The notes: generated by a model from the sequence alone, not told the origin. Positions 11,442 through 59,216 are shown, counted from the stretch's first letter. The stretch is DNA of 64,000 nucleotides from Dehalococcoidia bacterium (GCA_014874385.1 JACWAE010000039.1:1-64000), one strand, 5' to 3'. Program-made: numbers and translations.

Positions 11442-11515
11442 GGCCCCGTGGTGTAGCGGTCTAACATATCTGCCTGTCACGCAGAAGATCGTGGGTTCGA
11501 ATCCCATCGGGGTCG
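11442..11515 (+). tRNA. tRNA-Asp (anticodon GTC at 11476-11478)
   Basis: GGCCCCG/CGGGGTC acceptor stem, TCTGC-CTGTCAC-GCAGA anticodon arm, GTGGG-TTCGAAT-CCCAT T-arm. Confidence 0.93.
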
Positions 11516-12004
11516 CTTCTTCATTACTTTGTTGACAAATTCCTCGTAGTTTAACGCGAAGAACGGCTGTAGCTCAGGTTGCGGTCTAACAGCCACAACC
11601 TGACTGTCTTTTATCCATATTTCCTGAAATAGAGTACGCGCCAGCTTGTTTCTTTGCTCGCCGGAAGCCACCCTCCAAGCTTCACCGATGTTGGCCAAGA
11701 ACAGAGCCAATTTGCTTAGATCCGCTTGGCGCGTCTTAGGTGCCAACCCGACCATTTCTTTTTGTATCGCTTCCTTCTCCAGCCGATAGTCTTCCTCGCC
11801 CATGTCGCCCCATTTGTAAAGCTTCTTTATCCTGTCCAACTGAGCCTCCCACCTTGCTCGCACTTCATCCACATTGTCGTCGTCTGGTTCCAATTTGCGC
11901 TGAGCTTCTAAAATTCTATCCCGGCAGTCTTCTGGGATATGAAAAGTGTCGAGGTATTCCTCAATTTGCTTTTCATAGATGCCGCTTGCTGTAGAATTTG
12001 CCAA
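11477..12004 (-). pseudogene. Serine recombinase (large resolvase) C-terminal remnant reading into the tRNA-Asp gene
   Basis: C-terminal coiled-coil region typical of large serine recombinases (RARWEAQLDRIKKLYKWGDMGEEDYRLEKEAI...RNKLARTLFQEIWIKDSQVVAVRPQPELQPFF); no catalytic domain; terminal RPRWDSNPRSSA is encoded by antisense tRNA sequence, stop at the anticodon. Confidence 0.8.
11497..11515. repeat. Candidate att site copy 1 (tRNA-Asp 3' end)
   Basis: tcgaatcccatcggggtcg, exact match to 27332..27350. Confidence 0.85.
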
Positions 12005-45871: not shown

Positions 45872-46558
45872 TTAAAACCAGAGACTGGTATCCAATACTA
45901 CGCGCAAGCCCGAAATTTTTACAGCACTCCGGTGATATCCATACGGGAATAACTTTTCAAGGTCTCCCAAATCGATGTTATTTGATTCACAGCATTCGAA
46001 TACCGTGGGCACGATACCACTCTTTTGATAATTATCACGAAGGAAATAAATTATCTTCCAGTGTTTATCTGTCAGACCCCCGGGTATTTTCATTTCCAGC
46101 GCCTTGTTAATCGCAAATTCCTCGTCCCATTCGGAGGGATCGATGAGAAATCCTTCCGCGTCGATTCGATAGCTTTTTTCTCTTTGGTTAATTTCAGATT
46201 TCTCGATTGGACGTACAGGGCCCGGTTCTCTATAATAATTTACAATATGATCCCCGTGGTTTAATCCTGCAATTAAGCAGGCGCCTCTGTGGTATCCTGT
46301 CGGGAACAGTTCCTTAAGTTCCAGCCATGTTAGTTCATTCGCTCTGCAAGTTTCATACACTGTAGGGCACTTTCCGTTTTGATAAAATGAATCTCGGATA
46401 AAATGAATTATGGCCCAGTGTTTTTCTGAGAGTTTTTCGGACATGCCGAGTTTTGATGCTATTAGGATAGCGAAGTTTTCATCCCACTGATTATCGTCAA
46501 CTAAAAAACCTTCGTCATCTATGTTATAGTTCTTATCTTTATAAGTAATGGTCTTCAT
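45872..46558 (-). CDS. Tandem DsrC/TusE-like two-domain protein
   Basis: Two DsrC-like repeats: DDEGFLVDDNQWDENFAI...LSEKHWAIIHFIRDSFYQNGKCPTVYETCRANELTWLELKELFPTGYHRGACLIAGL and DAEGFLIDPSEWDEEFAI...LTDKHWKIIYFLRDNYQKSGIVPTVFECCESNNIDLGDLEKLFPYGYHRSAVKISGL. Confidence 0.82.
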   Translation of the reverse strand: MKTITYKDKNYNIDDEGFLVDDNQWDENFAILIASKLGMSEKLSEKHWAIIHFIRDSFYQNGKCPTVYETCRANELTWLELKELFPTGYHRGACLIAGLNHGDHIVNYYREPGPVRPIEKSEINQREKSYRIDAEGFLIDPSEWDEEFAINKALEMKIPGGLTDKHWKIIYFLRDNYQKSGIVPTVFECCESNNIDLGDLEKLFPYGYHRSAVKISGLRVVLDTSLWF

Positions 46559-46925: not shown

Positions 46926-47819
46926 ATGCCACAATCACCAGTCGAAGAGTATCCAGTGATTTGGTTACAGGGCGCTACCTGCACAGGGTGTTCGGTATCG
47001 GTTCTCAATTCAGTCAGCCCTACGATCAAGAATGTGCTGGTTGACGAGGTAATCCCCGGCAAGCACGTTAATCTCAGATTTCAGGCTACGGTGATGGCAG
47101 GGGCAGGAGAACTTGTAATCAAAGCATTGGAAGAGACCTGGAAAGCAAAAAAAGGAAACTATGTGCTGGTAGTCGAGGGCGCGATCCCCATGAAAGCAGG
47201 CGGCGCTTACGGCTCGATCGGCGAAAATAAGGACGGCAAGCCAGTATCTATAGCCACTAGAGTTGAAACCCTCGGGCGTGACGCGCTTGCAGTAATCGCT
47301 CTCGGCACGTGCGCTTCCTGGGGCGGTATCCCGGCTGCCAAACCTAATCCTTCGCAATGCGTCAATGTGATGCAAATTTTTCAATCTGAGGGCATAACTA
47401 CCCCCCTGATCAATGTACCCGGTTGTCCACCCCATCCCGACTGGTTTGTTGGAACAGTGGCGAGCTTGTTGCTCAACGGCTTACCGAAGAACGGTGAATT
47501 GGACGAAATTCATCGTCCCCGATTATTCTACGGGCAATTAATTCATGAAAACTGCCCTCGACGTGCCTATTATGATGAGAAGAAATTCGCTAAAAAGCTA
47601 AGTGAACCTGGCTGTCTCTATGAACTGGGCTGCAAAGGGCCAGTTACCCACGCAGATTGCGCCACGAGAATGTGGAATAACAAGATTAACTGGTGCGTCG
47701 GTTGCGGGGGACTGTGTATCGGCTGCGCTGCTCCTGGTTTCCCGGACCTTGTTTCCCCGTTATATGAAAAGACACCAGACATCACGTTACCGAATATAGG
47801 TCAAAGGGTGGTTCAGTAA
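46926..47819 (+). CDS. [NiFe] hydrogenase small subunit, no Tat signal
   Basis: VIWLQGATCTGCSVSVLN; GTCASWGGIPAAKPNP; NVPGCPPHPDW; CYS-rich CATRMWNNKINWCVGCGGLCIGCAAPGFPD. Confidence 0.93.
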   Translation: MPQSPVEEYPVIWLQGATCTGCSVSVLNSVSPTIKNVLVDEVIPGKHVNLRFQATVMAGAGELVIKALEETWKAKKGNYVLVVEGAIPMKAGGAYGSIGENKDGKPVSIATRVETLGRDALAVIALGTCASWGGIPAAKPNPSQCVNVMQIFQSEGITTPLINVPGCPPHPDWFVGTVASLLLNGLPKNGELDEIHRPRLFYGQLIHENCPRRAYYDEKKFAKKLSEPGCLYELGCKGPVTHADCATRMWNNKINWCVGCGGLCIGCAAPGFPDLVSPLYEKTPDITLPNIGQRVVQ

Positions 47820-47820
47820 A

Positions 47821-49380
47821 ATGGGCAAAATAATAATCGATCCAATCACGCGTATTGAAGGCCATCTGAAGGTCGAAGCTATTGTCGAGAAAGGCGTAGT
47901 AAAAGATGCTAAAAGTTCAGGCACTCTTTTCCGGGGGTTCGAGATAATCCTTAAAGGGCGTGACCCCCGTGATGCACAACGTATTACCCAGCGTATTTGC
48001 GGCGTCTGCCCAACCAGTCATTCTATTGCTTCAACTCTCTGTCTGGATAGTGCATTTGGCCTCGGGGGCTCGATCCCCGACAATGGAAGGCTCCTCCGCA
48101 ACCTTATTTTGGGGTCGGCTCATATCGCCGACCACATCCTCCATTTCTATCACCTTGCAGCTCTGGACTATGTAGATATTACAAAGGTTGCTAATTACGA
48201 AGGCGCTGATTCTACACTCAATTCGGTAAAGGAGTTCATCCAGCGTGGCGAACCCGGGCCATTCGTGCCTAGATATGAAGGAGATTACCGCTTTCCAGAT
48301 GCAGTTGACCGGCAATTGGTGGGGCATTATATCGAGGCTTTAAGAATGAGGCGTAAGGCTCAGGAGATGTGTTCCATATTTGGGGGCAAGATGCCACATA
48401 ATATGGCTGTAGTTCCCGGAGGGGTGACAGAGGTACCTACTATAGATAAAATCGCGTCTTTTCTTTGGAGGCTCAATGAGCTAAGAACCTTTATCGACCA
48501 GGTATATTTACCGGATGTATTAGCAGCGGCAGAAGTATATAGCGACTACTTTGAGATAGGCATCGGGTGTCGCAGACTCCTGTCATACGGAAGCTATGAG
48601 TTGGATGGTAAAGAACCCGATCTTACGAAGAGAAAGAGGTTATTCAAACAAGGTACTGTGGATTCCAATTTGAGCCTGCGACAGATTGATATAAGCGTAA
48701 TCGCCGAGGATGTAAAATACTCTTGGTACAATGACTCCACTACAGGCAGAAAACCAACTCAGGGGGAAACTATCCCTCAAGAGGACAAGGCTGGCGCCTA
48801 TTCGTGGGTAAAATCACCACGCTACAATGGACACGTGTATGAGGTAGGGCCACTTGCCCGTATAATGGCCACTTATCTCAATGGCGATGAGAAGGTGAAA
48901 TCGATTGTAGACCCGGCCCTGGCTAAATTTAAGGCCAGCCCGAAAGTGATGTTCTCGACTCTGGGACGCCACCTGGCGCGAGCTGTGAGTTGCAAGGTGA
49001 TTGCTGATACTATGCCGACCTGGCTGCTCGAGCTAAAGCCTGGGGAGCCTGTATATCAAGAATATGAGATCCCGGATGAATCCTCTGGTATGGGTTTAGT
49101 TGACGCAGCAAGGGGCGCTTTGGGGCATTTCATTCAGATAAAGGATAAACGGATTGCAAATTACCAGTGTGTTGTACCCAGCACGTGGAATATGTCCCCC
49201 AGAGACGATAACGGACAGCCTGGACCTTTAGAGCAGGCGCTGATTGGCACCAGGATCAAAGATGAGGCCAATCCGGTTGAGATCGTGCGAATTGTCCGCT
49301 CCTTCGATCCCTGCCTTGCCTGCGCTGTACACCTTATCACTCCAAAAGGCGGGACCCTAAGTAAATTTAAAATCCTGTAA
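47821..49380 (+). CDS. [NiFe] hydrogenase large subunit
   Basis: DPITRIEGHLKVE; L1 RICGVCPTSHSIAS; L2 SFDPCLACAVH followed by a 15-aa cleavable tail LITPKGGTLSKFKIL. Confidence 0.95.
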   Translation: MGKIIIDPITRIEGHLKVEAIVEKGVVKDAKSSGTLFRGFEIILKGRDPRDAQRITQRICGVCPTSHSIASTLCLDSAFGLGGSIPDNGRLLRNLILGSAHIADHILHFYHLAALDYVDITKVANYEGADSTLNSVKEFIQRGEPGPFVPRYEGDYRFPDAVDRQLVGHYIEALRMRRKAQEMCSIFGGKMPHNMAVVPGGVTEVPTIDKIASFLWRLNELRTFIDQVYLPDVLAAAEVYSDYFEIGIGCRRLLSYGSYELDGKEPDLTKRKRLFKQGTVDSNLSLRQIDISVIAEDVKYSWYNDSTTGRKPTQGETIPQEDKAGAYSWVKSPRYNGHVYEVGPLARIMATYLNGDEKVKSIVDPALAKFKASPKVMFSTLGRHLARAVSCKVIADTMPTWLLELKPGEPVYQEYEIPDESSGMGLVDAARGALGHFIQIKDKRIANYQCVVPSTWNMSPRDDNGQPGPLEQALIGTRIKDEANPVEIVRIVRSFDPCLACAVHLITPKGGTLSKFKIL

Positions 49381-49407
49381 TGCAGTAGCTATGAAGGTTC
49401 TATAGAG

Positions 49408-49863
49408 ATGACGACTACCGTGATTCTCGGCGCTGGCAACGAGCTGATGAAAGATGAGGGGGTAGGAGTGCATGCTATTCGAATCTTGCATAATGAGTTG
49501 TGTGACTCTCGCCCTGATATTAAACTCATGGATGTAGGCACTTCATCTGATTTCGGGCACTTGATCGAAGGTGCGGATAAACTTGTGATTGTCGATGCTG
49601 TGGAAGGTGGCTGTGAACCCGGGACAATTTATCGTTTTACACCGCAGCAGATAGAATCTGAATCCAGACTGACTACATCTTTTCATCAGATAGGGATATT
49701 AGAGAACCTCAGGATGATGGAACTCATGGGGATGAAGATAGCGGAGACCGTGATTATAGGCATTGAGCCGGCTGAAGTTCAGTTAGGTTTGTCATTATCT
49801 CCAGAAATAAAATTACAGATGCCCAGAATTATCCAGTCAGTGCTGGACGAGATATATCATTAA
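49408..49863 (+). CDS. Hydrogenase maturation protease (HyaD/HycI family)
   Basis: VILGAGNELMKDEGVGVHAIRIL; VDAVEGGCEPGTIYRF; SFHQIGILENLRMMELMG. Confidence 0.93.
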   Translation: MTTTVILGAGNELMKDEGVGVHAIRILHNELCDSRPDIKLMDVGTSSDFGHLIEGADKLVIVDAVEGGCEPGTIYRFTPQQIESESRLTTSFHQIGILENLRMMELMGMKIAETVIIGIEPAEVQLGLSLSPEIKLQMPRIIQSVLDEIYH

Positions 49864-49901
49864 TAGTACCGCCAAAACAAGAACAAAGCGAGGGCGCTAA
49901 A

Positions 49902-50546
49902 ATGTTGACGACTGAGCAAAAACCGATCGAGGAAATCCTAAAATACCTTGAAGGTGACAAAGACGTTTTCATTGTAGGTTGCCGGGGCTGTGCTGAAGGT
50001 TGTCACACCGGAGGCGAACAAGAGGTCTTGGATATAAAGCAGAAGTTAGGAGACGCAGGTAAAACTGTTACTGGCACATCTCTTATCGACTTCATGTGTA
50101 ATGAGAACTTGGTCCGAATGACATTGCAAGCACAGGAAGACAAGATCGTAGATGCTGATTCGTTGATCGTTCTATGTTGTGGTATTGGGGTACAGGCAAC
50201 CTCGGCAGTTGTCGACAAAATAGTTCACCCCGGTTGCAATACTGTTTCGATGGGGGGCCGACACGGCGAATGGCGAGACGGCGAGCGATGTCTGGAATGC
50301 GGCAATTGCATATTGGAATTTACCGGTGGAATTTGCCCTATTGCGAGGTGCGCTAAAAGCCTTCTTCATGGCCCCTGCGGTGGTTCAGAAGGAGGCAAGT
50401 GCGAGGTTCATCCCGATTTACCTTGCGCTTGGGATTTAATTATACAGCGACTCACCAAGTTAGGGAAGCTGGATATTTTAGAGGATATTGTACCACCCAA
50501 AAACTGGGGAGTGAGCCTTACGGGAGGGCCACCACGGCCTCGTTAG
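49902..50546 (+). CDS. metV: Methylene-THF reductase-associated zinc/Fe-S protein (MetV-like)
   Basis: KPIEEILKYLEGDKDVFIVGCRGCAEGCHTGGEQEV; LECGNCILEFTGGICPIARCAKSLLHGPCGGSEGGKCEVHPDLPCAW. Confidence 0.88.
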   Translation: MLTTEQKPIEEILKYLEGDKDVFIVGCRGCAEGCHTGGEQEVLDIKQKLGDAGKTVTGTSLIDFMCNENLVRMTLQAQEDKIVDADSLIVLCCGIGVQATSAVVDKIVHPGCNTVSMGGRHGEWRDGERCLECGNCILEFTGGICPIARCAKSLLHGPCGGSEGGKCEVHPDLPCAWDLIIQRLTKLGKLDILEDIVPPKNWGVSLTGGPPRPR

Positions 50547-50581
50547 ACATCGTATGGACGCCTACTCGCTAAAGGTGTAAT

Positions 50582-51760
50582 ATGGGCCAGAGTAACAGAA
50601 TGATAGCGCAAGTTGGCAAACGAGAATTGGACAGCATTAAAAAGACTTTTAAAAAGTCCAATATGTTCGATGAGCTAACAGACGCTGAGTTGGAAGAAGT
50701 GGCGAAGCTTAGCAAAAAAAGGGTTTACCGGGCAGGAGATATTGTTTTCACTGAAGGAGAGACGGCTAAGGAACTCTACATTATTGAAGATGGTACAGTT
50801 GTGTTGGAGATGTCAATTCGACTGGGTCGAAGTTCGGGCAGACAGGGCTCGATCGATGTCTTATCCAAGGGGCAGGTCTTCGGCTGGTCAGCAATTGCCG
50901 AGCCAAATATTTTTACCATGTCAGCAAGGTGTCTTGAAAAAACAATAGTCATAGCTATAGACCGGGCACGTCTTCAGCTTCTGTTTGATGAGAACAGCAG
51001 CCTGGGATTTAAACTTATGAAGAAGATAGTTGGCGTGGTGTCTTCACGTTTGGCAAGGTCTAGAGATACATTAGCACATATTATGTCTATAGCTTTCCAC
51101 GATCTAAAGTCCCCTCTGGCTGCAGTTCAAAGCTATCTCCAGGTGATACTCGACGGTTACACTGGGGATATCAGTGAAAAACAAAGAGGGATGCTAATAA
51201 GAAGCAGCGAGAGAATAAAAGAGCTGTTGAACCTGATAAATAATATTTTAGACATTTCTCGTATAGACACAGGCCAATTGCAGATGGAGAAAATATCCTT
51301 GCTTGAGATAATAGATAGTTCCGTAGAAACGGCCCGGCGCATAGCTAAGGAAAAGGGATTGAAAATTACGACAGAGATTCCTAAAGAGTTATCACTTATT
51401 GATGCGGCCCCGAACCGTATCCAGCAGTTGATGAATAACCTGTTGGGCAATGCAATTAAATTTACTCCTGAAGGGGGCACAATAAACCTGAAAGTATCTG
51501 AAAGAAGAGAAAACATCCTGATAGAGATTCAAGATACCGGTATCGGCATCAAAGCTGTAGACCTGCCCAGAATATTTGATGATTTCTATCGAGGTGCCGA
51601 CGTCGATACACCAGGGGCCGGCCTGGGACTTTCAATAGCGAAGAAGATAGTCAGAGCTCACTGCGGTAAAATATGGGTAGAAAGTCCCTGCCCCGAAACG
51701 GGGGCCGGAAGTAAATTCAGTTTCACTCTACCTAAAAGTACAGCTACCCTCGGAGCGTGA
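50582..51760 (+). CDS. Soluble histidine kinase with N-terminal cyclic-nucleotide-binding-like (CRP/FNR) domain
   Basis: VYRAGDIVFTEGETAKELYIIEDGTVVLEM cNMP-like domain; H-box SIAFHDLKSPLAAVQ; N box NNLLGNAIKFTPEGG; GAGLGLSIAKKIV; no TM segment. Confidence 0.92.
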   Translation: MGQSNRMIAQVGKRELDSIKKTFKKSNMFDELTDAELEEVAKLSKKRVYRAGDIVFTEGETAKELYIIEDGTVVLEMSIRLGRSSGRQGSIDVLSKGQVFGWSAIAEPNIFTMSARCLEKTIVIAIDRARLQLLFDENSSLGFKLMKKIVGVVSSRLARSRDTLAHIMSIAFHDLKSPLAAVQSYLQVILDGYTGDISEKQRGMLIRSSERIKELLNLINNILDISRIDTGQLQMEKISLLEIIDSSVETARRIAKEKGLKITTEIPKELSLIDAAPNRIQQLMNNLLGNAIKFTPEGGTINLKVSERRENILIEIQDTGIGIKAVDLPRIFDDFYRGADVDTPGAGLGLSIAKKIVRAHCGKIWVESPCPETGAGSKFSFTLPKSTATLGA

Positions 51761-51780
51761 AAAGGAAGGGGTATAATCCC

Positions 51781-52698
51781 ATGAAAGCGGGAACTAATTT
51801 AGAGAAGATCCTGGAAAGCGGAAGATTTGCGGTGACCGCTGAGGTAGGCCCACCGAGAGGAGCCGTGGCGAGCGTTGTGCAAAGGAAGGGAGAACTTCTA
51901 AAGCCTTTTTGCGATGCATTGAATGTTACCGATAACCAAACAGCTATCGTAAGGATGTCAAGCAAAAGTGCCTGCATTCTATTAAAACAACTAGGGATCG
52001 ATCCGGTAATGCAAATGGTCTGTCGTGACAGAAACAGGATCGCCATTCAAAGCGATATACTGGGAGCCGTGGCTCTTGGTATCGGCAATATCCTGTGTTT
52101 GAGTGGTGACTACCCAAGCTTTGGCGATCATCCTACAGCCAAAGCAGTTTTTGATCTGGACTCAGTTCAGCTAATTCGATTGGTACGACAAATGCGGGAC
52201 GAGCATAAATTCCTGTCAGGAGAAAAGATCTCGGGAGATCTCCCAGTTTTCATCGGCGCTGTAGAGAACCCGTTTGCAGACCCATTCGAGTACAGGGTAC
52301 GGAGACTGGCTAGAAAGGTAAAGGCTGGTGCTGATTTCATCCAGACACAAGCTGTTTTCAATGTAACCAAGTTTGCCAAATGGATGGAAATGGTTACAGA
52401 ACGAGGACTTGATAAAGAAATCCACATACTTGCTGGCGTTATACCAGTGAGGTCAGTAGGTATGGCCCGTCATATGCGGGACAATGTACCTGGCGTGAAT
52501 GTCCCAGATGAAATAGTTACAAGGATGGAGGACGCCAAGGATACTAAAAGCGAAGGATTAGCGATATGCCTTGAAATCATAGAACAAATCAAGGAAATAC
52601 CGGGTATCCACGGAATACACATAATGGCTGTAGGCTGGGAGGATATTGTTCCCACGATTATTGAAAAAGCAGGGTTACTACCTCGACCATTGATTTAG
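51781..52698 (+). CDS. metF: Methylenetetrahydrofolate reductase
   Basis: AVTAEVGPPRGA; VTDNQTAIVRMSS; CRDRNRIAIQSDILGA; LCLSGDYP; FIQTQAVF. ORF track starts at GTG 51757; ATG 51781 equally plausible. Confidence 0.92.
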   Translation: MKAGTNLEKILESGRFAVTAEVGPPRGAVASVVQRKGELLKPFCDALNVTDNQTAIVRMSSKSACILLKQLGIDPVMQMVCRDRNRIAIQSDILGAVALGIGNILCLSGDYPSFGDHPTAKAVFDLDSVQLIRLVRQMRDEHKFLSGEKISGDLPVFIGAVENPFADPFEYRVRRLARKVKAGADFIQTQAVFNVTKFAKWMEMVTERGLDKEIHILAGVIPVRSVGMARHMRDNVPGVNVPDEIVTRMEDAKDTKSEGLAICLEIIEQIKEIPGIHGIHIMAVGWEDIVPTIIEKAGLLPRPLI

Positions 52699-52707
52699 GA
52701 GGCAGAC

Positions 52708-53115
52708 ATGCAAAGTCAGACTAAGATTTTAATAGTGGACGATGATCCTGACATCAGAGAAGCAGTAAGTACTATTTTGGAGGCCCATTCATATCAAGTG
52801 GTTACTGCTAATAATGGTGAGGAAGGCTTGAGAAAGCTAAAAGAGGAGAGACCTAACTTAATGATCCTGGACCTTTTAATGCCCAAGCTGGATGGATTTG
52901 GCGTATTGAAAGAAATACAGGACCCAAGGTGGTCAAAGTATAGCAAAATTCCCATTCTGATTTTAACCTCGATTAAAGAGGATGTCAGCCGACGCAGGTA
53001 TGAACTGGAAACAGGATTGGATCTCAATATCGATGACTATGTTGAAAAGCCAATAAACCCAGGTATTTTAATTGAACGTGTAAAAAAGCTCTTGGAAAAG
53101 AGAACACATTCTTGA
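52708..53115 (+). CDS. Single-domain response regulator
   Basis: ILIVDDDPDIREAV...LMILDLLMPKLDGFG...ILTS...VEKPI. Confidence 0.93.
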   Translation: MQSQTKILIVDDDPDIREAVSTILEAHSYQVVTANNGEEGLRKLKEERPNLMILDLLMPKLDGFGVLKEIQDPRWSKYSKIPILILTSIKEDVSRRRYELETGLDLNIDDYVEKPINPGILIERVKKLLEKRTHS

Positions 53116-53146
53116 GTTCGATGCACTGTGTCAAAGGAGGTAAGGG

Positions 53147-53539
53147 ATGGGTAAGCAAGCTACAGTACTCTTAGTAGATGATGATCCTGATTTCGTTGAA
53201 GCGACAAAAGTCGTCCTTGAGAGTAAATATCGGGTTATAGTTGCATACAACGGAGAAGATGGCCTGAAGAAGGTCGTCGATGCAAAGCCTGACTTAGTGA
53301 TTTTGGACGTGGTAATGCCCGGAAGGAATGGTTTTGAAATTTGTAAAGAACTCAAAACAGCTCCCAAGTATCAGGCCTACTGCAAAATTCCAGTGATAAT
53401 GCTTACCGTTTATCCAGATGATAGGGAGAAAGCTCGTCTAACTATGTTTGAAGGAATGATTATGGAGGCGGATGAATATCTACAGAAGCCCGTCGCGCCT
53501 ACTGATTTGCTGAGACAAGTAGAAAGTTTATTGAAGTGA
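53147..53539 (+). CDS. Single-domain response regulator
   Basis: VLLVDDDPDFVEAT...LVILDVVMPGRNGFE...MLTV...LQKPV. Confidence 0.93.
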   Translation: MGKQATVLLVDDDPDFVEATKVVLESKYRVIVAYNGEDGLKKVVDAKPDLVILDVVMPGRNGFEICKELKTAPKYQAYCKIPVIMLTVYPDDREKARLTMFEGMIMEADEYLQKPVAPTDLLRQVESLLK

Positions 53540-54076: not shown

Positions 54077-54301
54077 CTATATTGTACTCTTCTGACTTTC
54101 TTCTTCCTTTTCAACTTCGGTTGCTCCAATTATCTTCGCGAAGACATGTTTCTCATAAAAGCCCTCTGGGGCAAGCCCTCCTCCTGCTTCATATCTCTTC
54201 TCCAGCAACAGGACTTTTTGTCCCGCTTTGCTCAGGTAGGCTCCGATAGCCAGTCTGTTGGGCCCGCTACCTATGATGATTACATCGTATTGCCCCGACA
54301 T
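54077..54301 (-). pseudogene. Truncated phytoene desaturase-like FAD oxidoreductase N-terminus
   Basis: MSGQYDVIIIGSGPNRLAIGAYLSKAGQKVLLLEKRYEAGGGLAPEGF... then stops; full-length paralogs follow upstream. Confidence 0.65.
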
Positions 54302-54373
54302 TTTCGTCTTCTTTCCCAACAACTTACCTGCCTATTTGTTAGCCAATAGTGAACGCAGGTAATGAAGTGCGTA

Positions 54374-56104
54374 TCACTTTGGCACCTTAAACGCTTCTCG
54401 CGCTTTGTTAACTGCCCACCGGGTCGTCTCAACCAGGGAATCAGGTTCTTCTTTACCCTTTTCCTCCCATGGCTTGCCCAACCCCATATCGCTGGCCATG
54501 ATTTTGTAGCAATTGTAGGCGGCGTCTGCACTGGCGTTCGAGCCCACATGCCAGTAACCCCCGGTACAGTAGAGGTTCTGAATCGGGGTTCTGTGATTGG
54601 CCAGCTCAGGCGTGGGTCTATTAGCCCCACGCTGGGACAGGGACTGGTCGATTCCTGAGAAATTACCATGGGGCGCCAAATTCTTCATGCGCAGGTTGTC
54701 CCAGGGGCTATTAGTATCAACACCGACGATGTTATCCCAGTTCATGTTGGTAGCATAATTCCCCCAGACATGGATCAGGTCCTCGGCAAATTTTGTTTTG
54801 AGCTTCAACCACTCTCTCTCGCTCATGTCGGTGGCACGAGGTCCCTGCATCTCGCACTGAGCCACATGCTTCCCGGGCGGTGCATAAGCGGGGTCTGCCA
54901 GGCTGTGGCACCAGACAACCGGGTTGTACTCATGAAGGGGCGGGAGCATACCCATATTGGCGTAGTGGCACTCTCTAGCGATGTGTTCGAGGTCGGCACT
55001 CTCCGCCAGACCTAGCCACTCAGTCTTGTTTATATCGGGGTTGAACGCAGCAGCCTTATACTTAGGAGCCTCATTCAGGGCGAAGCTATACCACATCAGA
55101 TTGCCTATGTTTGAGGTTGATAACTTGTCGACTCGTCCAGCTATCTTTTCTCCAACTATATCCCTGCCTATCAAATCGAAACATAGCTGTGCGGCGCTCA
55201 GGCCAGCGCTGACGACGACCTTTCTGGCACCGATAACAGTGCCATCTGTGAGACGGATGCCTTTAGCCACTCCGTCTTCGATAATGGCTTTGGCAACCTC
55301 GGCGTGGGTGAAGAACTTAACGCCGTTCTGCACCAGAATCTGGTGGCAAGCATGTGCAATCTGATGGGTTCCCCCTCTGGCATAACCTATGGTTGCCAAA
55401 GTCCCTATCATCCCCAGAGTCTCGGCTCCCTGTGAGGGGTCGTTAACACTGCGTGCTCCTGAGACAATAAATCGGCAAAGGCAGTATTGCAGCTCCCTAC
55501 AATCAAAAAATTCCTGCGCGGCGCGTTTAGGGGTGGCTGCTAGAACTAGAGAGTCAGGGTCGACCCCTATTTCCAGAGCTTTGGGGTATACGGCTATTTG
55601 CCTTTCCAGGTACTCGGGCGCTGCTTGCCATTCGTGGGGATTGAAAATGTTGTCTATCTGCACCCTCTGTATTTCATCCCCTTGGGTCAGTCCCGCAAAC
55701 TTGAGCCATCTTTCGGCATCTTTTTTGGAGAACTTGGCGATCTCTCTCGCCGTCCTCTCCCCGGTCGGGTCATCCTTTATGCTGTAGATAGCAAGGCAGG
55801 TGTCGTTGTTTCTGAAAGCTGCACCGTCACTTACCAGATACTGGTCATACTGACCACCGTAATCCCAGAAATCGGGGAAGTCACGATAAAGAGGTGCGTA
55901 GTACCAGGGGAGAATTATGTTGGCATGGGTGTTACCGCGAAATCCCGGTGCCGCTGTTTCCTCAGTGGCCAGCCCACCTCCTATCTCATGTCTTCTTTCA
56001 AATATGCCAACGCTCATACCAGCGTACTTGCTCAAGTACATAGCAAGCATCAAGGCTTTGTTTCCCCCACCGCATACTACTGCATCGAACGTCAAATCAG
56101 ACAT
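54374..56104 (-). CDS. FAD-dependent oxidoreductase, phytoene desaturase-like
   Basis: FDAVVCGGGNKALMLAMYLSKYAGMSVGIFERRHEIGGGLATEE; CTGGYWHVGSNASADAAYNC; ORF extends to 56155. Confidence 0.87.
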   Translation of the reverse strand: MSDLTFDAVVCGGGNKALMLAMYLSKYAGMSVGIFERRHEIGGGLATEETAAPGFRGNTHANIILPWYYAPLYRDFPDFWDYGGQYDQYLVSDGAAFRNNDTCLAIYSIKDDPTGERTAREIAKFSKKDAERWLKFAGLTQGDEIQRVQIDNIFNPHEWQAAPEYLERQIAVYPKALEIGVDPDSLVLAATPKRAAQEFFDCRELQYCLCRFIVSGARSVNDPSQGAETLGMIGTLATIGYARGGTHQIAHACHQILVQNGVKFFTHAEVAKAIIEDGVAKGIRLTDGTVIGARKVVVSAGLSAAQLCFDLIGRDIVGEKIAGRVDKLSTSNIGNLMWYSFALNEAPKYKAAAFNPDINKTEWLGLAESADLEHIARECHYANMGMLPPLHEYNPVVWCHSLADPAYAPPGKHVAQCEMQGPRATDMSEREWLKLKTKFAEDLIHVWGNYATNMNWDNIVGVDTNSPWDNLRMKNLAPHGNFSGIDQSLSQRGANRPTPELANHRTPIQNLYCTGGYWHVGSNASADAAYNCYKIMASDMGLGKPWEEKGKEEPDSLVETTRWAVNKAREAFKVPK

Positions 56105-56223
56105 TGCAAGCTCCTTCTCATTTCTCAATACAGAGTACTGATTTTGAGTATGCAAACGCTTTAGCCATTTTTACGATTAACTCAGGGAATATATTAGTTC
56201 TCAGATAATCACACTTCCCGGTT

Positions 56224-57702
56224 TCAATCCCTGAGTATAGATTTCCTTTCCAAAAAATAATGGCGCACTAGTGGCGCTACCCTCAAACCGGAGCTCACCG
56301 CCTGGTGTGTACCAATGAAGGCTCCTCCACCGGCATCGTGTCCCACGAAGAAGAGACCTGGCAGCGGCGATTTGGGAGACGGCTTGTTCTTCCCACAGTA
56401 GCCTACGGTCACTGCCAAGCCCACAGCCTCGCCTCCCAGGCCAGGCAACACGCGATCCCTGCTCAGCTTCGATACCTGCGCTGGTCCCACATAACCTTCT
56501 CTAGACTCAATGTAGGGGACTGCTTCGGGGAACATTTCTTCAAATAGCTCATCTACCTTCTTCTGCACCGCCTTTATCTCTTTGGCATCAGGGTCAGGTG
56601 AACACCAGGCACCGATGAGCAGTAACTGCTTGCCCTTAGGAGCCATATCGGGGTCAAAGACGGCCGGACACACCCCATATACAGATAGAACCTCGGGTAT
56701 CTTGCCTTTTTTCATCTCGGCAAGGCGCTCTACGTCGATATAACTGTCCTCAGATGTTCCCAGGAACATGCCATGCTTCATCACCGGCTTGCTGAAGATG
56801 TAGCGCTGGTTACAGAATCCGAGGCTGGGAACGATGTCCTTTACATAGCCAACGTAGCTCTTGTCAAAATGCTCCTCACCGACCAACTTCAAAACTGTTG
56901 GCTGAAGGCCTGCATTGCTCACGACGATGCGTGATTTGTAGACCCTGTCTTTGGTAGCAACGCCAGTGACGCGGCCCTGTTCAACAAGGATCTTCTCCAC
57001 CCTCGTGTTGAGCTTGAGAGTGCCGCCATTAGCTTTGAACACATCTAGTATATCGTCGACCACTCGTGCATAGCCGCCTCTGGGAAAGCCTGTAGTACTG
57101 GAACCGAAGATCTGCATAATCCTCGATATCTCGGACATGGCAACAAGTTCATAGAGTCCGGTGGCCATGAGATTTGAGTGCACAGCAAAGAAACCGAACA
57201 GGGGCTTCGGTATTTCCCCTCTCTGAGCCACCCATTCCTTGACACTGACATCGTCGAGCGCGTCCAACTGCTCCGGGGTCAATAGGGCCGCTTCGGCCAG
57301 CACCCGCAGGGCGACCTCGCGCTCTTTGGGTTTCAAATTCCAGGAATTGAACATGTTTTCCGCGGGGTCTGTTTCCTGATGCCCTCCGGTAACAGAGGTT
57401 ATCCACTTCCCGTTCGGGCGTCGATACATCAGCGCGTTGGTCTTCGGTATTACATCCAGTTTGGATTCGATGCCCAGCGCCTTGAATGCCTCCACGAAAG
57501 GCCCTATCTCGATGGGGATTCCGTAGGTGGGCCACATCTCGAATTTGAAACCATTTGCTGAGAAGCCCATCTGCTTCCCGCCGGGGCGGGTGTTCTTGTC
57601 AAGCACCAGTGTTTTGCAGCCCCACTTAGCTAACAGGGCACCGCAAACGACACCTCCCAGTCCTGCTCCGACCACAATCACATCATACTTCTCTGCCATC
57701 AT
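56224..57702 (-). CDS. FAD-dependent oxidoreductase, phytoene desaturase-like
   Basis: YDVIVVGAGLGGVVCGALLAKWGCKTLVLDKNTRPGGK; GLFFVGHDAGGGAFIG. Confidence 0.9.
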   Translation of the reverse strand: MMAEKYDVIVVGAGLGGVVCGALLAKWGCKTLVLDKNTRPGGKQMGFSANGFKFEMWPTYGIPIEIGPFVEAFKALGIESKLDVIPKTNALMYRRPNGKWITSVTGGHQETDPAENMFNSWNLKPKEREVALRVLAEAALLTPEQLDALDDVSVKEWVAQRGEIPKPLFGFFAVHSNLMATGLYELVAMSEISRIMQIFGSSTTGFPRGGYARVVDDILDVFKANGGTLKLNTRVEKILVEQGRVTGVATKDRVYKSRIVVSNAGLQPTVLKLVGEEHFDKSYVGYVKDIVPSLGFCNQRYIFSKPVMKHGMFLGTSEDSYIDVERLAEMKKGKIPEVLSVYGVCPAVFDPDMAPKGKQLLLIGAWCSPDPDAKEIKAVQKKVDELFEEMFPEAVPYIESREGYVGPAQVSKLSRDRVLPGLGGEAVGLAVTVGYCGKNKPSPKSPLPGLFFVGHDAGGGAFIGTHQAVSSGLRVAPLVRHYFLERKSILRD

Positions 57703-57749
57703 TCACCCCCCTCAAAAATTTTCCGTGATGTACTTTGCACGTATAGTTT

Positions 57750-59216
57750 TTAGAACTGAGCGCGGTGAGTAAACCAGTAGTCGCGCACAATATTGAACAG
57801 GTTCATGCCGGATTCCACACACATGTGATTGCCGAAACCTGAGCTTCCGGCATCGGCGCCGACGTAGAAAAGACCTCCCACAGGGGCTTTGGGAGATGGT
57901 TTCAGGTTGCCGCACTGCCCTACTATCTGGCCGAGACCGATGCACTCTCCACCTGTGCCGGGAACTACCGAGTCCCTCGACAGGCGGGATATCTGTGCCG
58001 GCCCGTAGTACTCTTTCTCCTCAATGTACTTAAAGACATCGGGCCACAGCCTGGCAATCTCTGCCTCGACTTTGTCCAAGTAGTGCTTGATTTTCGTCCT
58101 GGGGTCGGCAGGGCATGTGATGCCCGTATAGACGAGTTGCTTGCCTGGGGGCGCCATACCCGGGTACAACGAATTCGTGGACATGAAGATATACATCTGC
58201 TTGGGCATCTCGCCGGTCTCGGCCCTTAGATGCTCTTCCAGGGAAGTTACGGTGTTGTCGGAACAATAAACGTACATGAAGCAATCCAGCACAGGCTTGC
58301 TCAAGAAATACCTCGCTCCGGCGAAACCGAGGCTGGGGACTAAGTCTCTTACATAGTTCACATAGCTTTTATCGAAATGCTCCTCGCCCACCAGCTTGAG
58401 CACTGTAGGCTGGATGCCGGCATTGGATACCACGATAGGCGCCTGGAAAGACCCCTTGTTAGTGATTACTCCTTTAACCCGGCCGTTCTCCACCGCAATG
58501 CGCTCGACTTTCGTTCGCATAAGGAGGTCGCCGCCGTATGACTGCATAACCCTGGCTATGGCCCCGTACAGTCTGCCGAAGCCGCCCGATGGGTAGAGGC
58601 CACCGCCCTGAGTGTTATTCTGCTGAAAGACTTTTATGAACTCCGAGGCGCACGCAATAGGTCCGGCGACTTCGAGAGTGCCCTCGCTTTGCAGGGTGGC
58701 GAGCATAGAATAGAGAGAGCGTGGTATTTGATAGCGATCGAGGAATTGCACGACACTGACTTCGTCCAGCAGGTTTTGGTCGTGGCGTGACATGCCCAGT
58801 ATATCGGTAAAGAGCCGCATGACTTCCGGCATATCGGCATCAGTGACGCCAAGCATGTTGAATAAATCTTGCGGGTCTACCGGTTTCCCACCTCCGGGAA
58901 GCACTAAATTCTTTATCTCGCCGGAGGGCGTCTCATAGAACATGCGGCCCATAGGGTCGGGCGCTATCAGCTCTATTTCGTTCTCCAGTCCCAGTATCCT
59001 GAGCAACGAGTGGATTTCTGTGTTGCTGGACGGGCACGCTGCGATGGGCCAGTACTCATAACGGAATCCATTCTTGGCAACAGTCATCGCCTTGCCGCCG
59101 ACCTGGGCATTTTTGTCTATTAGGAGGGTTTTAAGACCCCACTTGGCGAGCAGGGCTCCGCAAGTCACTCCGCCGGGGCCTGCTCCGATCACGATTACAT
59201 CATAATTCTTTGCCAA
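57750..59216 (-). CDS. FAD-dependent oxidoreductase, phytoene desaturase-like
   Basis: YDVIVIGAGPGGVTCGALLAKWGLKTLLIDKNAQVGGKAM; GLFYVGADAGSSGFGN. Confidence 0.9.
   Translation of the reverse strand: MAKNYDVIVIGAGPGGVTCGALLAKWGLKTLLIDKNAQVGGKAMTVAKNGFRYEYWPIAACPSSNTEIHSLLRILGLENEIELIAPDPMGRMFYETPSGEIKNLVLPGGGKPVDPQDLFNMLGVTDADMPEVMRLFTDILGMSRHDQNLLDEVSVVQFLDRYQIPRSLYSMLATLQSEGTLEVAGPIACASEFIKVFQQNNTQGGGLYPSGGFGRLYGAIARVMQSYGGDLLMRTKVERIAVENGRVKGVITNKGSFQAPIVVSNAGIQPTVLKLVGEEHFDKSYVNYVRDLVPSLGFAGARYFLSKPVLDCFMYVYCSDNTVTSLEEHLRAETGEMPKQMYIFMSTNSLYPGMAPPGKQLVYTGITCPADPRTKIKHYLDKVEAEIARLWPDVFKYIEEKEYYGPAQISRLSRDSVVPGTGGECIGLGQIVGQCGNLKPSPKAPVGGLFYVGADAGSSGFGNHMCVESGMNLFNIVRDYWFTHRAQF

Follow-up and report, generated by a model that had tools for sequence, protein, structure and literature searches.

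A cytoplasmic [NiFe] hydrogenase co-inherited with the MetV subunit of methylene-THF reductase suggests direct use of H2 in the Wood-Ljungdahl pathway

In a Dehalococcoidia bacterium and in relatives from about 14 bacterial phyla, a cytoplasmic [NiFe] hydrogenase is inherited as a unit with MetV, the iron-sulfur subunit of methylene-THF reductase, which suggests an enzyme that uses H2 directly for one step of the Wood-Ljungdahl pathway. The analysis started from a 64,000-nucleotide stretch of DNA (GCA_014874385.1, JACWAE010000039.1:1-64000; here called the window), a contig of a 2.8-Mb genome bin consisting of 118 contigs with 95% completeness and 6% contamination. A preliminary description of the window had proposed a co-directional cluster of hydrogenase, protease, metV, histidine kinase, metF, and two receiver genes, and all eight genes were confirmed to be present, intact, and on the same strand (Table 1), with gaps of 1, 27, 38, 35, -4, 9, and 31 nt. 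MetF has a better ATG start at 51781 behind AAGGAAGGGG, which lies just after the stop codon of the kinase gene. In a scan for promoters and terminators, promoter matches were near chance and terminators fewer than chance.

Table 1. Genes of the hydrogenase-metVF cluster, numbered from the first nucleotide of the window
Position	Strand	Product	Length (aa)	Features
46926..47819	+	HydS, [NiFe] hydrogenase small subunit	297	No Tat signal, no C-terminal anchor helix; ligands for three Fe-S clusters (C19 C22 C129 C167 / H207 C210 C230 C236 / C245 C257 C264 C267)
47821..49380	+	HydL, [NiFe] hydrogenase large subunit	519	Cys (not Sec) ligands C60 C63 C498 C501; cleavable tail after H504
49408..49863	+	HycI-type hydrogenase maturation endopeptidase		TIGR00072, PF01750
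49902..50546	+	MetV, Fe-S/Zn subunit of methylene-THF reductase, hydrogenase-linked subclade		PF12225; 12 conserved Cys; diagnostic W124
50582..51760	+	Soluble histidine kinase		N-terminal cNMP-binding-like domain; HisKA and HATPase domains
51757..52698	+	MetF, flavin subunit of methylene-THF reductase		PF02219; likely start ATG 51781
52708..53115	+	RR1, stand-alone receiver		No output domain
53147..53539	+	RR2, stand-alone receiver		No output domain

The family assignments are unambiguous, with Pfam and NCBIfam agreeing on each gene for which they have a model; HydL, for example, scored 726 bits against NF033181 (cutoff 600). The nearest solved relatives of HydL are [NiFeSe] and [NiFe] group 1 large subunits, and HydS is nearest to the [NiFeSe] small subunit 1cc1_S (3e-79), although HydL carries Cys rather than Sec in its C-terminal motif (DPCLAC). 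HydS starts with MPQSPVEEYPVIWLQGATCTGC, only 18 residues before its first CxGC motif, so that there is no room for a Tat signal. The four Ni-Fe cysteines of HydL are invariant, and HydS possesses all ligands of three clusters, including C257, which is present in 79% of the hydrogenase-linked HydS proteins. The MetV cysteines at positions 27, 30, 66, 93, 130, 133, 136, 145, 150, 159, 167, and 175 are all present in the window; 11 of the 12 are invariant in 125 MetVs. A sequence search of the PDB with MetV found nothing, and a fold search with its predicted model (pLDDT of 85) gave only weak Rossmann-like matches, so that no structural template for docking was obtained.

To test whether the gene order is a local accident, 393 genomes of the class were surveyed, 45 of which carry group-1-type HydL. 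In 24 of 24 testable loci, i.e., those not cut by a contig end, HydSL without a Tat signal is followed by MetV and MetF, in one genome (G004) on two contigs. In addition, a scan of one genome per species by HydL similarity only gave 80 loci. Taken together, all 62 complete Tat-less HydS/HydL pairs sit beside metV, whereas none of 26 Tat-bearing pairs does. Apparent exceptions proved to be artifacts, namely a wrong HydS ORF start in a HydL-HycI-HydS arrangement (locus L194), a MetV gene overlapped by another ORF (L238; overlapping ORFs initially also hid MetV in L092), and contig ends (L087 and L223; the MetV of G004 is carried by L088). Named hosts include Chloroflexota, Actinomycetota, Planctomycetota, Armatimonadota, Thermodesulfobacteriota, Nitrospirota, Deltaproteobacteria/Myxococcota, Bacillota (including a Moorellales bin), Elusimicrobiota, Spirochaetota, Omnitrophota, Poribacteria, Aerophobetes, and Bipolaricaulota. 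Note that the phylum names come from record titles of genome bins, that almost all data are from metagenome bins, and that the trait is patchy, since the sister genome (G001) lacks this hydrogenase. Conversely, a profile of linked MetVs found four hits above 325 bits in 400 Chloroflexota genomes, all four of them beside HydSL, with the next best hit at 257 bits.

Phylogenetic analysis indicated that MetV goes with the hydrogenase, whereas MetF is exchangeable. In a first MetV tree, 70 hydrogenase-linked MetVs formed one side of a branch (SH-aLRT 99), and after addition of MetV paralogues from the other phyla the split was 71 against 54 with a support of 99.8. Paralogues from the same genomes, including the two further MetVs of the bin studied here, fall outside this clade. 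Consistently, HydL and MetV distances correlate with a Spearman coefficient of 0.66, which none of 999 permutations reached (maximum, 0.27), while the coefficient was 0.59 for MetV-MetF and only 0.25 for HydL-MetF; MetF changes between hydrogenase-linked and other contexts about 15 times on its tree, MetV once. In the HydL tree, the MetV-linked sequences need three changes against the Tat-bearing ones, and the Tat-type pair of one Dehalococcoidia family (f16; small single-contig, Dehalococcoides-like genomes) falls among cytosolic ones with weak support. Related sequences share neighbors by descent, so that these counts are not independent events; the spread over phyla and the contrast with the paralogues are the stronger points. 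Intriguingly, Trp124 is found in 71 of 71 linked MetVs and in 0 of the others, and further residues separating the two groups include G29, D63, and F64. In HydS, the separating residues include positions 208, 214, 218, and 220, which lie around the distal-cluster ligands H207, C210, and C230. This fits docking at the distal cluster but is an inference; the two HydS groups also differ by ancestry.

The genomic context points to the Wood-Ljungdahl pathway. Specifically, one locus (L145) has the order CODH, AcsB, AcsC (CdhD family), pterin-binding methyltransferase, HydS, HydL, MetV, MetF, another (L143) has the order Fhs, FolD, HydSL, HycI, MetVF, and in a third (L193) an FTCD_C cyclodeaminase follows MetF. 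AcsB was found in 49 of 56 host genomes and in 16 of 16 that are at least 90% complete and at most 5% contaminated. Sixteen genomes have the hydrogenase-linked MetV as their only MetV, 13 of them with AcsB, although "only" is provisional because the bins are incomplete. The bin studied here encodes acetyl-CoA synthase, HypD, and formate-THF ligase as well as three metV and three metF genes. No Hdr, MvhD, RnfC, or NuoF gene lies in the cluster, in agreement with the preliminary description, which had reported the absence of HdrABC, MvhD, and diaphorase genes, but the same genome has a second MetV beside an HdrA of 1480 aa. Other MetV loci of the class sit by HdrA of about 1480 aa, NuoF-GltD, or HdrA-MvhD fusions, so the hydrogenase takes the place of those input modules.

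The most likely explanation, in which we have fairly high confidence based on comparative genomics only, is that hydS-hydL-hycI-metV-metF encodes a soluble cytoplasmic H2:methylene-THF oxidoreductase, the direct enzyme that the preliminary description had put forward as a testable idea. In this reading, HydL, matured by HycI, splits H2 (or makes it), and electrons run through the three Fe-S clusters of HydS, leave at the distal cluster into the Fe-S clusters of MetV, and reach the FAD of MetF, where methylene-THF is reduced to methyl-THF. MetV would be the adaptor that fits MetF to this donor, as other MetVs fit it to HdrA, RnfC2, or NuoF-type donors, and the kinase and receivers would regulate MetF activity or expression as an optional add-on. 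The physical complex, the electron path, the activity, and its direction are inferred, but the idea withstood those of the originally suggested challenges that could be addressed, as the gene order is not unique and hydrogenase and MetVF co-occur by inheritance and not merely in one contig. On the other hand, no HydS-MetV fusion was seen in the fetched loci, although MetF-MetV fusions exist, and MetVF of Sporomusa ovata was purified without its Hdr partners (PMC9430772), so operon partners need not form tight complexes. Moreover, a drop from H2 (-414 mV, standard) to methylene-THF (-200 mV) without energy capture looks wasteful at high H2.

Among the alternatives, the one that survives best concerns direction rather than mechanism and is a subcase of the direct enzyme: the complex might run mainly in reverse, oxidizing methyl-THF with H2 release during acetate or methyl-group oxidation. 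The electron wire would be reversible, and at very low H2 the two couples come close (by our calculation, about -270 mV at 10 nM H2 against -200 mV), but the reaction is still uphill at these levels, and operons with fhs, folD, and CODH/ACS do not tell direction; we regard this as possible but doubtful. A functional but indirect link, in which HydSL reduces ferredoxin or another soluble carrier that MetVF then uses and the genes are only co-regulated, is considered unlikely. Purified MetVF enzymes of acetogens do accept reduced ferredoxin (PMC9430772, PMC8760232), but no ferredoxin gene is conserved in the clusters, a general ferredoxin user would not need a hydrogenase-specific MetV clade or signature residues, and at nanomolar H2 ferredoxin reduction is unfavorable according to our estimate. 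Still less likely is a bifurcating assembly with an unlinked Hdr or NuoF/flavin module that captures part of the energy: other MetVF enzymes use HdrA/MvhD, and a NuoF-like gene lies upstream in one Dehalococcoidia family (L136), but no flavin bifurcation subunit is conserved in the clusters, and by our calculation there is little energy to bifurcate at sediment H2 levels.

Least likely is that HydSL is an H2 sensor feeding the histidine kinase that lies in the same operon, since 52 of 62 MetF loci of HydSL-MetVF clusters have no kinase, kinases also sit by MetF in Hdr- or NuoF-type loci without this hydrogenase, and HydL keeps its cleavable tail and HycI protease, apparently in contrast to sensory hydrogenases. 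The H2-responsive phosphorelay, offered as a second idea in the preliminary description, is thus not supported. Specifically, kinase and receivers track MetF and occur in a subset of clusters only, namely in the window, in five further genomes of the survey (G056, G087, G010, G049, and G148), in two other Chloroflexota, and in two Nitrospirota (receivers), but also in a genome (G044) beside an HdrA-type MetV without this hydrogenase. The sensor domains differ (cNMP, GAF, or PilS-like), and the cNMP domain of the window has GWSAIAEPNIFTMSARC at the position where cAMP-binding domains usually appear to have an Arg for the phosphate, so that cAMP is doubtful as a ligand.

The adjacency itself has been noted before. 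In Great Salt Lake "Ca. Bipolaricaulia," group 1a HysAB was described in one sentence as positioned adjacent to MetVF and possibly providing electrons for methylene-THF reduction (PMC11287216), and L238 is a Bipolaricaulota bin whose name (GSL_CB2_2) points to the same site; that report covered one lineage and included no test of signal peptides, phylogeny, co-inheritance, or breadth. No other mention was found in openly accessible full texts, including the searched passages of PMC5736913, PMC9430772, PMC7325909, PMC10689502, PMC8671834, PMC6305446, and PMC2702500, and the breadth, co-inheritance, and signature residues appear to be new. An extra electron-input module in an operon with MetV and MetF has a counterpart in Chloroflexi DscP3, in which a phoBR-like pair flanks metF (PMC5736913), but here the input module is a [NiFe] hydrogenase pair, there is no HdrA flavin and no MvhD, and MetV belongs to another clade. 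The MetVF core is shared with MetVF-RnfC2 (NADH) and plain MetVF (ferredoxin) reductases, but there is no RnfC-like subunit, and the donor is predicted to be H2. The periplasmic group 1 HupSL/HysAB hydrogenases (Dehalococcoides type, Desulfomicrobium) have homologous HydS/HydL (58 to 61% HydL identity to the Tat-type pair of family f16) but carry a Tat signal, mostly a C-terminal anchor, and have no metV neighbor.

Which donor feeds methylene-THF reductase decides how acetogens conserve energy and has long been argued over, with four types of the enzyme being recognized in acetogens (PMC9430772); the arrangement described here would represent a fifth electron-input class of MetVF reductase. 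It is more likely than not that HydSL-MetVF is one enzyme, a hydrogen-dependent methylene-THF reductase spread over about 14 phyla of mostly uncultured anaerobes and often their only MetV-type reductase. It would then mark the second Wood-Ljungdahl step at which H2 is used directly, after that of the hydrogen-dependent CO2 reductase (HDCR), which appears to work alike but has an [FeFe] hydrogenase and formate dehydrogenase and is not homologous. With an E0' of -200 mV for methylene-THF, we estimate that the step yields about -41 kJ/mol at 1 bar H2 but only about -13 kJ/mol at 10 nM H2, so that in sediments little is lost by not bifurcating. The finding also suggests that cytoplasmic "group 1" hydrogenases may be misread as respiratory uptake enzymes.

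On the strand opposite to the hydrogenase operon and divergent from it, a gene for a protein featuring two tandem DsrC-like domains was identified. A run of genes located downstream of the operon on the other strand resembles phytoene desaturases and FAD amine oxidases. Elsewhere in the window, a tRNA-Asp was found to overlap the end of an ORF on the other strand with a recombinase-like tail, as at an integration site.

Coordinates of additional features in the window and in loci fetched for comparison (L numbers)
Location	Position	Strand	Feature
Window	45872-46558	-	Protein with two tandem DsrC-like domains (228 aa)
Window	54077-59216	-	Run of phytoene-desaturase/FAD amine-oxidase-like genes
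Window	11442-12004		tRNA-Asp overlapping the end of an ORF
L273	2248-4227		Single ~660-aa protein fusing MTHFR and the MetV C-terminal domain
L274	1846-3822		Single ~660-aa protein fusing MTHFR and the MetV C-terminal domain
L150	5055-6629	-	HydL of a Tat-type hydrogenase with in-frame TGA
L137	5823-6683	-	Second, divergent MetV copy
L172			Second, divergent MetV copy

Variations in MetV arrangement were also observed. The fusion proteins of L273 and L274 possess an N-terminal stretch that looks receiver-like by eye, but this was not found by Pfam. In the hydrogenase clusters of L137 and L172, the additional MetV copy is positioned between MetV and MetF. At G044:C93 (a contig of another genome), L092, the order MetV-kinase-MetF-RR1-RR2 is that of the window, but with a 1476-aa HdrA upstream in place of the hydrogenase.

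In the Tat-type HydL of L150, the TGA is located at the second Cys of the N-terminal motif (QRICGV*P); it was seen once and may represent selenocysteine, a mutation, or a sequencing error. In the HydL tree the Tat-type (periplasmic) hydrogenase of the Dehalococcoides-like family f16 falls among cytosolic MetV-linked hydrogenases (support 80), so it may descend from them.
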